Of a stretch of DNA of 64,000 nt, positions 61,029 through 63,955 are shown one piece after another (the stretch's first letter is position 1; every line of letters starts with the position of its first letter). The stretch spans positions 1 to 64,000 of the forward strand of contig VMTA01000015.1 of assembly GCA_013791855.1 (NCBI GenBank), read 5' to 3'. Origin of the DNA: Sideroxydans sp. (GTDB taxonomy: Bacteria > Pseudomonadota > Gammaproteobacteria > Burkholderiales > Gallionellaceae). The translations under genes and the position numbers were made by a program. A model generated the notes under the pieces. It had not been told where the DNA came from and did no database searches. It saw only the letters and a list, made by a program, of their open reading frames with translations.

Positions 61029-61067
61029 GTCCTCGTAGTTAAATGGATATAACCGCCCCCTCCTAAG
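61029..61067 (+). pseudogene. Orphan 5' half of tRNA-Arg(CCU)
   Basis: GTCCTCGTAGTTAAATGGAT onward matches the 5' half of tRNA-Arg(CCU), through the anticodon CCT (61062-61064) and the bases AAG. No 3' half follows. From 61031 to 61066 the stretch is identical, except for one base, to positions 61725-61760 of the intact gene 694 bases downstream. It is intron-less at the junction. The first base is G, while the intact gene has C and pairs perfectly with its own 3' arm. It looks like the left edge of an integration event at the anticodon loop. Possible -10 TAGAAT at 60996-61001. Confidence 0.85.
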
Positions 61068-61258: not shown

Positions 61259-61573
61259 ATGAATCATTTCGATATTATTTTGAAGGATTTGAAGAGTCAC
61301 TTTGGAGTCAAAATTCTTCTATCTCCAGATGACATCTCACCTCTAATCAACAAATCAAGAGACGCTCAGCAAGCCCTAAGGAAAAGGAATAGTTTCCCTA
61401 TCCCATACACAAAATTGGGCATGCGAATCACCATCAACATCTACGACTTGGCACAGTACTTGTCTACCAACTCATCACATTCTGTTCAGCCAGAACCTAA
61501 TGCCAATTCCATCCCTTATCTAAAGCCTCGTAAGAGCCGCTTTTCAGGCTTCGCAAAGCAACTACTCGAGTAG
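61259..61573 (+). CDS. Small AlpA/excisionase-like HTH protein (putative)
   Basis: A 104-residue protein starting MNHFDIILKDLKSHFGVKILLSPDDISPLINKSRDAQQALRKRNSFPIPYTKLGMRITINIYDLAQYLST. The middle part (residues 20-68) has the pattern of small winged-HTH excisionase/AlpA proteins: a start helix, a recognition helix rich in Arg/Lys (SRDAQQALRKRNSFPIP), a Lys-Leu-Gly wing and a final DLAQYL helix. Such proteins direct excision of tRNA-integrated islands. Strong AGGAGG lies 8 bases before the ATG. It sits between two tRNA-Arg copies, supporting an island remnant. The assignment is by pattern only. Confidence 0.55.
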   Translation: MNHFDIILKDLKSHFGVKILLSPDDISPLINKSRDAQQALRKRNSFPIPYTKLGMRITINIYDLAQYLSTNSSHSVQPEPNANSIPYLKPRKSRFSGFAKQLLE

Positions 61574-61722: not shown

Positions 61723-62019
61723 CTCCTCGTAGTTAAATGGATATAACCACCCCCTCCTAAATTTTGGGCATCCAAACTGAAAAGTTTGTGATGAATCGAG
61801 TCAAAGTCGGCGAAACCTCTGGCATCTATTTGCCGTGGCAATACCGAGCGAAGCGAAGTGTGTTTACACTTTGAACGTGTAGAGACTAGACGGCTCGAAC
61901 CTAAGGGCAATGCCTATGGTTAAGGGATAGTCCAGACCACAAACAACCCTTGTGTTGGTAGCTAAAGCTATAGTGGGATGAAGGGGTAATTACAGGTTCG
62001 ATTCCTGTCGAGGAGACCA
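61723..62019 (+). tRNA. tRNA-Arg(CCU) interrupted by a group I intron
   Basis: Exon 1 is 61723-61758 and exon 2 is 61981-62019, 75 nt after splicing, with the CCA end encoded. The acceptor arm CTCCTCG/CGAGGAG pairs perfectly, as does the T stem around GGTTCGATTCC. The anticodon stem ACCCC/GGGGT closes loop CTCCTAA with anticodon CCT. The intron lies between the last anticodon base and the next A. The gene should read AGG codons. Splicing is required for function. Confidence 0.92.
61759..61980 (+). ncRNA. Group I intron (IC3-like) in tRNA-Arg(CCU)
   Basis: A 222-nt intron follows exon base U61758 and ends in G61980, the usual group I boundaries. The guide GGG (61766-61768) pairs with exon CCU through a U.G wobble. 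Three conserved blocks match the Azoarcus tRNA-Ile and Agrobacterium tRNA-Arg introns: TCAAAGTCGGCGAAACCT (61801-61818), GTGTAGAGACTAGACGGC (61877-61894) and GATAGTCCAG (61926-61935), whose GACTA and TAGTC form P7, the guanosine site. No homing endonuclease is encoded. It should self-splice. Confidence 0.9.
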
Positions 62020-62144: not shown

Positions 62145-62666
62145 TTATAAACGCACCGTATCAAGAGATGACAATTCCGCATTCCCGCTCGCTTTCTCAA
62201 GTATTGGGCGCTCAAGATGGTCTCTTAATATTGATAAGCAAGCACTGTGACCCTTTTGGCTTGCTGCACTCATGGCATTCTTGATTTTGTCTTCATAGGC
62301 ATCGGCCTCTGCCTTCAATAGCACTTGAACAATCTCTGCGTCTCCTCGAGATGCTGCCGTTTGCAAAGGCGACCATCCATAATCATTTTCGGCATGGATA
62401 TTTGCGCCCGCATCAATCAACAAGGGTGCTATTGCAGCTTCACCAAGTGATGCGGCAATGTGCAAAGGTGTGTTGTCTTTCCTGCCTACGGGATTGACGT
62501 TTGCCTCAGCTTCAATGAGTAGCTTGACGCAAGACAGGCTTGCCTCACAGGCATAGTGAAGAGCTGTATTGCCATTACGGTCTGTTTCATTCACATCGAC
62601 ACCATCGTTGATGTGTTTCTCTAAGACTATTGTGTTGCCTGCTTGTGCGGCTTGAAAAATATCCAT
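62145..62666 (-). CDS. Small ankyrin-repeat protein
   Basis: A 173-residue protein starting MDIFQAAQAGNTIVLEKHINDGVDVNETDRNGNTALHYACEASLSCVKLLIEAEANVN, continuing with about four ankyrin repeats (NTPLHIAASLGEAAIAPLLIDAGANIHAENDYGWSPLQTAASRGDAEIVQVLLKAEADA). No signal peptide. Only a poor ribosome site precedes the ATG. It stands alone in the island region, reversed relative to the AbiH gene, and its composition is less GC-rich than the ankyrin gene at 50280. It may bind a protein partner; the function is unknown. Confidence 0.75.
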   Translation of the reverse strand: MDIFQAAQAGNTIVLEKHINDGVDVNETDRNGNTALHYACEASLSCVKLLIEAEANVNPVGRKDNTPLHIAASLGEAAIAPLLIDAGANIHAENDYGWSPLQTAASRGDAEIVQVLLKAEADAYEDKIKNAMSAASQKGHSACLSILRDHLERPILEKASGNAELSSLDTVRL

Positions 62667-62806
62667 CTTGAATTGATTCTGGCAATTTAAAGGCACAGTC
62701 TATGCCAGAAATAAACAAAGTACACGATCGGCACCAACCTTACGTCTCATTTTCGGTGCGGTCATCCGTAGCAGATGAGGCGAATGGCTGCTTCCCACAT
62801 CTTTCC

Positions 62807-62942: not shown

Positions 62943-63955
62943 TTAGGTGCTTTGGGAGATGATCGGCGATGTCTGAGCTTTGGGTCATAGGGAACGGATT
63001 CGACCTCTGGCATCAATTGCCGACCAGGTACAGCGACTTCTACCAATTCGCCAAATCTACGCTCAATGAGGTGGAAAACTACTATGACCATGAGCTTGAA
63101 CACGGCGGGCCTTGGTGCGACTTTGAAAATTCTCTAGGAAATTTTCTCTGGAGTGAGTTCTTTGACGCTCATAACCACATTGATGCGGACGCCGAGGACT
63201 TTAGGCCTAGCTTTGTATACGGTCTTGAAGATGAGCTCACTGAGCAAGCGGATCAGATCGTGGAGGCGATAAAGGAATCCTTCCGAGAATGGATTCAAGG
63301 GATCAATATTTCAGGGGTTGTTCGTCAACTTGAACTTCCAGATGACGCGTTGTTTGTCTCGTTTAACTACACCTCTACGCTAGAGGAGATTTACGGCATT
63401 GAGGTCGAGCGGATCTTGCACCTTCATGGAAGGGCCGCGGTTTTCGATGATCTGATATTCGGGCATGGCGACACGATCGAGGGGGAGCCAGAACTTGATG
63501 AAAACGGCGACAGTAATCGCACTATGTTCACAGATGCCGAAAACGCCGCGAAGTACCCTTTCCACGCTCTCAAAAAACCCGTACCCGAGGTGCTGGAGAA
63601 GAATAAGAAGTTCTTCGATTCTCTTGAGCACATAACTGAAATAACGGTGGTGGGCCATTCGCTCAATAGGGTAGACCTCCCGTACTTTCGGAAATTGGCC
63701 GAGAGTGCTCCACATGCGCACTGGAGAGTATGCTGCTTCAGCGAAGATGAGAGGATTCATCATGTTGAGCAATTGGCTAATTGCGGTGTTTCACGAGATA
63801 GCATACGGATTTGTTCTTATGCAGAATTGCAGGTTTAGCCTTGGTGCGGCAGCACCTAACAAATCATTGCAGCGGACGTTCACCCCCGTCGCCCCGCCCC
63901 CATTTTTGCTGCCGAAAAAAACAAGCATCGCCTAAAATGCCTCTGATTTCAGGCG
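62943..63955 (+). mobile_element. Putative integron gene cassette carrying abiH
   Basis: The segment begins TTAGGT, directly after G62942, and ends at an attC-like site whose R'' ACCTAAC (63854-63860) is the exact reverse complement of GTTAGGT. In a circular cassette these must pair, so this match is strong evidence for a true cassette. It holds one gene, abiH, in the forward orientation. The second R' (GTTTACG, 63955-63961) is non-consensus. No integrase gene is in the window. Confidence 0.5.
62969..63838 (+). CDS. AbiH-family phage abortive-infection protein
   Basis: A 289-residue protein starting MSELWVIGNGFDLWHQLPTRYSDFYQFAKS, the signature of the AbiH family (IGNGFDLxHxLPTxYxDF), and ending with the second conserved block ITVVGHSLNRVDLPYFRKLAESAPHAHWRVCCFSEDERIHHVEQLANCGV. 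Lactococcal AbiH blocks phage growth; the mechanism is not known. The length is complete. Upstream GGGAG serves a 5-codon reading frame (ATG at 62959, MIGDV) that overlaps the abiH start, so abiH may be translated by coupling. It appears to be a lone cassette gene. Confidence 0.88.
   Translation: MSELWVIGNGFDLWHQLPTRYSDFYQFAKSTLNEVENYYDHELEHGGPWCDFENSLGNFLWSEFFDAHNHIDADAEDFRPSFVYGLEDELTEQADQIVEAIKESFREWIQGINISGVVRQLELPDDALFVSFNYTSTLEEIYGIEVERILHLHGRAAVFDDLIFGHGDTIEGEPELDENGDSNRTMFTDAENAAKYPFHALKKPVPEVLEKNKKFFDSLEHITEITVVGHSLNRVDLPYFRKLAESAPHAHWRVCCFSEDERIHHVEQLANCGVSRDSIRICSYAELQV

Follow-up and report, generated by a model that had tools for sequence, protein, structure and literature searches.

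The tRNA-Arg(CCU) locus described here lies near the end of a 64,000-nt stretch of the Sideroxydans sp. genome, which was analysed as a whole and is called the window below. When introns were allowed, ARAGORN called a tRNA-Arg(cct) gene with a 222-nt intron between positions 36 and 37 (ctcct, intron, aaggg). The original prediction had placed this gene at 61723-62019 and an intron of that size directly after the anticodon, and both proved exact. The same program run without introns returned zero tRNA calls across the window. The features of the locus, including the severed 5' half of a second tRNA-Arg(CCU) gene, are collected in Table 1.

Table 1. Features of the split tRNA-Arg(CCU) locus and of the adjoining island in the window
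Feature	Position	Strand	Evidence or remark
Host tRNA-Arg(CCU) 5' half, severed at the anticodon loop and ending in the left core	61029..61067	+	blastn
Left core CCTCCTAAG	61059..61067	+	right core at C42:76743-76751, outside the window
104-aa ORF between host half and rescue gene	61259..61573	+	adjoins rescue tRNAs across the element family
Rescue tRNA-Arg(CCU) 5' exon, last bases forming the anticodon CCU	61723..61758	+	ARAGORN
Group I intron, 222 nt, without ORF, terminal G	61759..61980	+	Rfam, ARAGORN, alignment
Rescue tRNA-Arg(CCU) 3' exon, encoding CCA	61981..62019	+	ARAGORN
Ankyrin-repeat ORF, island cargo	62145..62696	-	Pfam Ank_2 1.8e-26; PADLOC PDC-M72A 5.4e-23
AbiH-family abortive-infection protein, island cargo	62969..63838	+	Pfam AbiH 3.1e-56; PADLOC AbiH 4.9e-33

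The Rfam model Intron_gpI, proposed as a check of the intron, answered in part: a search of 1,301 bases gave 38.7 bits (E=5e-8), short of the 50 bits set as gathering score, and a scan of the whole window gave nothing at that score. Three undoubted tRNA introns, one from a genus-mate (L040) and two from plasmids (L051 and L050), scored 48.3, 45.0 and 34.1 against the same model (RF00028), so that 38.7 bits is ordinary for an intron of the tRNA type. Run on the 158 genomes of the family, the model gave six matches and missed the window's own intron. The predicted class, a tRNA-type group I intron with guide and core, was borne out by the pairs and covariation seen when 20 tRNA-Arg(CCU) introns were aligned together with short stretches of exon. 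The guide (CCU/...GGG, forming P1 with a U-G pair at the splice site; slashes mark splice sites) is invariant in all 20, and the 46 drawn pairs, which comprise the exon anticodon stem, P1, P3, P4, P5, P6, the P7 pseudoknot, P8 and P9, hold in 99.5% of 920 cells. The covariation score was 0.564, whereas 500 shuffles averaged 0.162 and none was as high; slid versions of the structure scored 0.05-0.10, a comparison that favours the drawn structure because it was partly derived from the same alignment. All four Watson-Crick types are present at one P7 pair, and covariation backs the core helices P3, P4, P6, P7 (pseudoknot) and P8, as expected of a group I intron. Folding of the transcript beat 200 of 200 shuffles (z -2.81). 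Across 40 loci (34 from genome_contigs, five from the order and the window's own), the form CCU/...G/AA with its terminal G recurs in 38, the other two having an odd 3' call. These data indicate a genuine intron that belongs to a known, widespread type, and, because of this structure and because the interrupted gene seems to be the sole copy, it would splice itself out to give the cell's tRNA.

A blastn search with the rescue gene against its own genome found three places, namely the gene itself, 61029-61067 and C42:76743-76787, the last lying beyond the window. An intron-less half copy had been predicted beside the intron-bearing gene; the half exists at 61029-61067, but it belongs to the host tRNA-Arg(CCU) gene and not to the rescue gene. 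It shares 97% identity with the 5' half of the rescue gene, while C42:76743-76787 holds the host 3' half, and a 9-bp core is common to both host halves at a core-to-core distance of 15,684 bp. When the host 5' half was joined to the sequence from C42:76743 onward, 212 of 240 positions matched the intact locus of a genus-mate (G015), and the gene is uncut in all six genus-mates read. The acceptor stem of the host halves (GTCCTCG/CGAGGAC) forms 7 of 7 pairs, as does that of the rescue gene (CTCCTCG/CGAGGAG), whereas host and rescue halves crossed form 6 of 7. A genome-wide search with a tRNA-Arg(CCU) pattern found zero further copies besides the half and the rescue gene, so that by this pattern the host gene is the sole one of its kind; the genome has 42 tRNAs over the cut-off. 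A T-stem mismatch in the host 3' half, which might have been taken to prove decay, was set aside because one of 35 relative copies counted has identical letters there. The halves, the cores, the joined flanks, the acceptor pairing and the zero further copies together argue that the host's sole gene was cut by an island and that the intron-bearing gene is its replacement. We regard this architecture, i.e., a split host gene, a rescue gene and a group I intron, as firm at the level of sequence. The intron interrupts the rescue gene at just the point at which the island splits the host gene. It has the marks of tRNA-dependent integration: a short att core in the anticodon loop, a host tRNA left unrebuilt, and an element-borne tRNA of the same isotype as a host gene that is otherwise single-copy.

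The half and the intron-bearing gene had been thought to record the states before and after intron gain. The half instead belongs to the host gene, cut by the 15,684-bp island, and the gene with the intron is a third copy, of foreign origin. A related idea is that a tRNA gene was duplicated in tandem, after which the intron entered one copy and the 3' half of the other disappeared. Two related copies 656 bp apart on one strand would fit such a history, but the 3' half is intact 15.7 kb off and pairs with the 5' half, not better with the rescue gene; moreover, the joined flanks rebuild the genus-mate locus and foreign defence cargo lies between. Duplication and decay is thus highly improbable, being refuted for the genome of the window and untenable in five other genomes (G539, G187, G460, G340 and G012), where the island is flanked by both halves.

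According to Pfam and PADLOC, the island carries defence genes. Its cargo at C42:64184-76260 includes a PD-T7-1-like protein, a 1,633-aa Mrr-NACHT-HEAT protein and a CoiA-like protein. Neither an integrase nor a relaxase was found on the window island by tblastn with six related recombinases and two relaxases, by a motif scan or by Pfam; it thus shows neither the tyrosine integrase expected for tRNA-dependent integration nor the integrase plus relaxase of an integrative and mobilizable element (IME). We file the island as a derelict or dependent relative of such elements, not as an IME.

The small ORF between the host half and the rescue gene links the island to an element family. Relatives of this 104-aa ORF, its own genome included each time, occur in 4 of 158 genomes of the family, 9 of 399 of the order and 3 of 369 of the class, with zero matches in plasmids or phages. 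HTH_17 was detected in three of five members (best E 7.7e-6; merely 0.2 for that of the window). A structure model of the ORF (pLDDT 75.5) had the RdfS excisionase as its best PDB match (E 0.038, none at 0.001), which hints that the protein might adopt a winged-helix, excisionase-like fold. Within the order, a tRNA adjoins the ORF in eight of the nine genomes bearing it. The same host gene is split at the same place in G152, G102 and G154, where an intronless complete rescue tRNA-Arg(CCU) adjoins the ORF. G152, G102 and G403 each combine the two host halves and the small ORF with a complete rescue tRNA-Arg(CCU) and, at the far end, a tyrosine integrase (PF00589, with E values of 1e-16 to 8e-15 or better); in G403, a complete chromosome, the entire design fits within 11.1 kb. 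G287 likewise has a tyrosine integrase near the far end, and a MobA/MobL relaxase is additionally found in G152 and G102. The IMEs of these last two genomes share the small ORF, the rescue tRNA and the att site with the window island; however, they have the integrase and relaxase that were not found there. In G287 (Arg-UCU), in G443 and G275 (both Ser) and likewise in G268, a tRNA adjoins the small ORF and the two host halves were not found. A tRNA is absent next to the ORF in G044 and in the weak class matches.

The intron had also been taken, like others of its kind, for a separate, sporadic acquisition, a view that the wider comparison does not support. A pattern scan of genome_contigs for interrupted tRNA-Arg(CCU) genes found 117 stretches, and 34 of the 80 loci among the matches listed have a group I core at the same position, directly after CCU. 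In a tree of 54 introns (L103 and L135 were excluded for an odd 3' boundary), the introns of Alcaligenaceae and Ferrovaceae form one supported group and those of Rhodobacterales and Acetobacteraceae another, each an inherited block. The window's intron stands alone on a long branch (0.67) apart from the two groups, and its placement is weak. The intron of family f42 is identical to that of Ferrovum myxofaciens; as Ferrovaceae belong to Burkholderiales in GTDB, the host order is probably Burkholderiales in those terms. Group I introns were also seen in tRNA-Ser(UGA) genes (L353 in G359, L354 in G253 and L371 in G317), an isotype that is not named in the available literature passages on bacterial tRNA introns.

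The core pattern occurs at 22 places in 21 of the 399 order genomes. These places and four further tRNA introns of the family made up a survey of 26 loci, from which a duplicate (L056, the same as L365) and a match outside a tRNA (L058) were omitted. Of the 26 intron-bearing tRNAs, 7, the window's included, are preceded on their own strand by an uninterrupted 5' half of that tRNA, compared with 5 of 474 in a swapped control using tRNAs of other isotypes, all five being one complete tRNA-Leu gene. The seven comprise the Arg-CCU gene of the window, Ile-CAU genes in G539, G187, G460, G340 and G012, and a Leu-UAA gene in G142. Half and rescue gene lie 656 bp apart in the window and 140-195 bp apart in the remaining six. 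In six cases (the window's genome, G539, G187, G460, G340 and G012) a host 3' half turned up 2.8 to 32.6 kb further along. Similar arrangements were reached by other routes in Limnohabitans (L148/G909, Arg-CCU) and in G413 and G198 (both Ile-CAU). A recombinase lies near the intron-bearing rescue gene in G012 (PF00589), G413 and G198, and an ORF of G187 without a Pfam match is a clear relative of the G413 and G198 recombinases.

Other loci gave less complete pictures. No integrase or relaxase was found by the same tblastn on the G460 and G340 islands, and the G909 island also lacks an integrase. The far end is a doubtful remnant in G909, and the elements of G142 and G413 extend past the contig end. 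G430 combines a half with an integrase relative, and about 6 kb of its sequence showed no rescue tRNA. No half copy was seen in the stretches read around the intron tRNAs of Bradyrhizobium and Tritonibacter plasmids, G033, G157 and G126, and among the genome_contigs loci listed only one of the 34 tRNA-Arg(CCU) introns adjoins a half. Two islands showed further peculiarities. The left end of the 30.8-kb island of G012 (L381, 12650-17782, minus strand) holds three consecutive ORFs, the first of which (461 aa) matches Phage_integrase while the other two have no Pfam match. In G198 (C4, 63500-103499; L398 and L399), tandem tRNA-Ile(CAU) elements carry two dangling halves 225 bp apart and two intron-bearing 5' exons, and one of the introns is apparently broken by foreign transposase-like DNA. 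Judging from the titles and abstracts retrieved by literature searches, none of which joins group I introns with element attachment sites, the association of introns with split tRNAs appears to be unreported.

The 5' anticodon stems of host and rescue genes were compared for each element, a stem being called host-like when 4 or 5 of its 5 positions agree. In the first set, the stem was host-like in 7 of 8 intron-bearing and 0 of 5 intronless cases (Fisher p 0.0047). A search of the order for dangling tRNA-Ile halves, with a match in 10 of 399 genomes, brought four later finds, two intronless with a host-like stem (G515 and G499) and two intron-bearing with a host-like stem (G413 and G198); the counts then became 9 of 10 versus 2 of 7 (p 0.035), in a comparison that is small, is confounded by isotype (Ile mostly with introns) and kinship (G539 and G187 belong to one genus), and uses statistics that ignore descent. 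The D-region before the stem is identical at 15-16 of 18 positions in four of the five elements that lack an intron, where the changes thus single out the stem, and at 11 of 18 in the fifth. Several elements count against the stem rule. G515 and G499 combine a dangling half with an intronless rescue-like tRNA whose stem is host-like; neither the far end nor an integrase match was found in about 38 kb, and the two may be scars of lost islands. G909 has both an intron and a rewritten stem, and the crossover in G012 falls beyond the anticodon stem, which places the intron outside the core.

Among phages, a corresponding arrangement was found in the Gordonia phage Daredevil (NC_048021; L052, 1170-1650). 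It has an unannotated tRNA-Lys(UUU) gene that contains a 238-nt group I intron, lies about 570 bp from the integrase gene and is likewise missed by ARAGORN without introns. The sequence between the two genes repeats 16 nt of the spliced anticodon stem-loop exactly, as an attP should, so that the attP-like and rescue stem-loops are identical over 16 nt. In its available part, PMC10865867 describes Daredevil as integrating at tRNA-Lys-TTT without rebuilding, with its own tRNA absent and with clear plaques. As far as that text goes, Daredevil's tRNA is one that was overlooked; the clear plaques look as if this tRNA did not rescue, and they speak against its good function. In the Gordonia phages DatBoi and Bantam, an attP-like ACTCATAATCC accompanies a rescue tRNA(CAU) that has no intron and a different stem (GGTCA/TGACT). 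A census of viral introns gave no general association: of 119 stretches found, 80 were available and 61 analysable (19 were dropped for want of a usable ARAGORN call), and an att-like copy of at least 12 nt lay near 1 of the 61 intron tRNAs, compared with 16 of 1,220 shuffles, or about 0.8 expected. The tRNA-Arg intron pattern found five stretches in viral_contigs, all of which read as adjoining ordinary tRNAs. IMG/VR contigs (L229-L308) hold many intron-bearing tRNAs, with tRNA-Leu(UAA) the most frequent among the ARAGORN calls. In an uncultured huge phage (LR756511; L053), an ORF-like stretch, HNH-endonuclease-like by eye, precedes the intron core inside a tRNA intron.

We propose the following account. 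A 15.7-kb element, in which an integrase is no longer recognisable, inserted via the 9-bp core into the anticodon loop of the host's sole tRNA-Arg(CCU) gene; in contrast to ordinary elements that target tRNA genes, it carried too little tRNA sequence for rebuilding that gene, which was therefore left in two pieces. In place of the cut gene it supplied, as the sequence shows, a complete tRNA-Arg(CCU), from which the intron must splice itself if the cell is to have this tRNA. Were the rescue gene intronless, its anticodon stem-loop would be nearly identical to the element's target. By parting the stem-loop in the DNA, the intron could prevent the integrase from taking the rescue gene as a second target, and intronless related elements would mostly reach the same end by compensated rewriting of the anticodon stem. 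We assign a probability of roughly 0.85 to this account of an island-split gene and an intron-bearing rescue tRNA. The part played by the intron is more tentative. That the rescue gene is concealed from the integrase, be it by the intron or by a rewritten stem, is a suggestion we hold at somewhat under even odds. The same caution applies to the broader idea that group I introns were repeatedly recruited as shields of rescue tRNAs, in Proteobacteria islands and an actinophage, with stem rewriting as the alternative; this, too, we hold at somewhat less than an even chance.

Against a shielding role stand two counter-examples, the null phage census and the window island without an integrase. In G198, one rescue-type copy is itself cut by another element, which shows that such genes can be targets. 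The presence of the intron could also be put down to a selfish or neutral passenger that arrived with the rescue tRNA or invaded it later and has no role in integration, the islands merely moving tRNA genes of which some bear introns. It would explain why introns are common outside islands, with no half nearby in 33 of 34 listed tRNA-Arg(CCU) cases and 19 of 26 surveyed ones, why phages show no att association, why an intron persists on an island with no integrase to be shielded from, and why G909 combines an intron with a rewritten stem. Yet it leaves unexplained the strong association with split-tRNA islands (7 of 26 versus 5 of 474 swapped controls) across three isotypes and differing insertion points, and it does not predict the difference in stems between intron-bearing and intronless rescue genes. 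We put the passenger explanation at not quite an even chance. The intron might otherwise serve the rescue tRNA by delaying its expression until integration or by excluding competing elements. PMC3293823, in the part available, suggests that an archaeal intron from a mobile element could exclude further elements, and the tandem elements of G198, where another element cut the rescue-type copy, would suit competition of this kind; however, a promoter scan of the rescue-gene locus found nothing, and exclusion is hard to separate from self-shielding by sequence, so we think another service of this sort unlikely. Shielding from the element's own integrase is the reading we favour for the intron's presence; it stands close to that of a passenger and is held short of an even chance.

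Group I introns in bacterial tRNA genes occur in tRNA-Ile(CAU) of Azoarcus, tRNA-Arg(CCU) of Agrobacterium and tRNA-Leu(UAA) of cyanobacteria, and such self-splicing introns are usually viewed as harmless passengers. The window's intron resembles them in its size, its site after the anticodon, its guide, its core helices and its want of an ORF. The known ones, however, have been described as residents of host tRNA genes, whereas here the intron sits in the rescue gene of an island beside the broken host gene. Randau and Soell reportedly proposed in 2008 that archaeal tRNA introns protect against integration. There, too, an intron disrupts a tRNA that would be an attachment site and is supplied by a mobile element; archaeal introns, however, need a protein endonuclease and sat in the rebuilt host gene, whereas the present case involves an intron of the self-splicing type, a separate rescue gene and a bacterial element. 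The protective idea is cited in the available part of PMC3293823, and PMC3984707, as far as that text was available, deals in part with bacterial tRNA introns of group I.

Among the closest relatives of the arrangement is the tRNA-dependent lysogeny of actinobacteriophages (Guerrero-Bustamante & Hatfull 2024), for which the comparison is limited to the available text of PMC10865867. Both systems have a short common core (about 10 bp) in the anticodon loop, a host tRNA left unrebuilt and a complete same-isotype tRNA on the element, with a tyrosine integrase, here in the relatives. Unlike the actinobacteriophages, the present elements are non-phage islands of Proteobacteria whose rescue tRNA contains a group I intron, and the isotypes include Arg-CCU and Leu-UAA besides Ile-CAU and Lys. 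No intron is named in that text, where the only match is the title of a reference. Our findings extend tRNA-dependent integration from actinophages, and the one Lactobacillus prophage that this text names, to islands of Proteobacteria.

The Daredevil result also becomes re-testable. Because ARAGORN without introns misses the genes of both the window and Daredevil, some genomes will appear to lack tRNAs that they possess, and annotation pipelines overlook intron-bearing rescue tRNAs. The proposed role of the intron makes a simple prediction, namely that deleting it turns the rescue gene into an integration target. If it holds, tRNA introns would be a working part of mobile elements, with a ribozyme used for target immunity; bacterial tRNA introns would thereby gain a selective role, and their patchy distribution would be partly explained.
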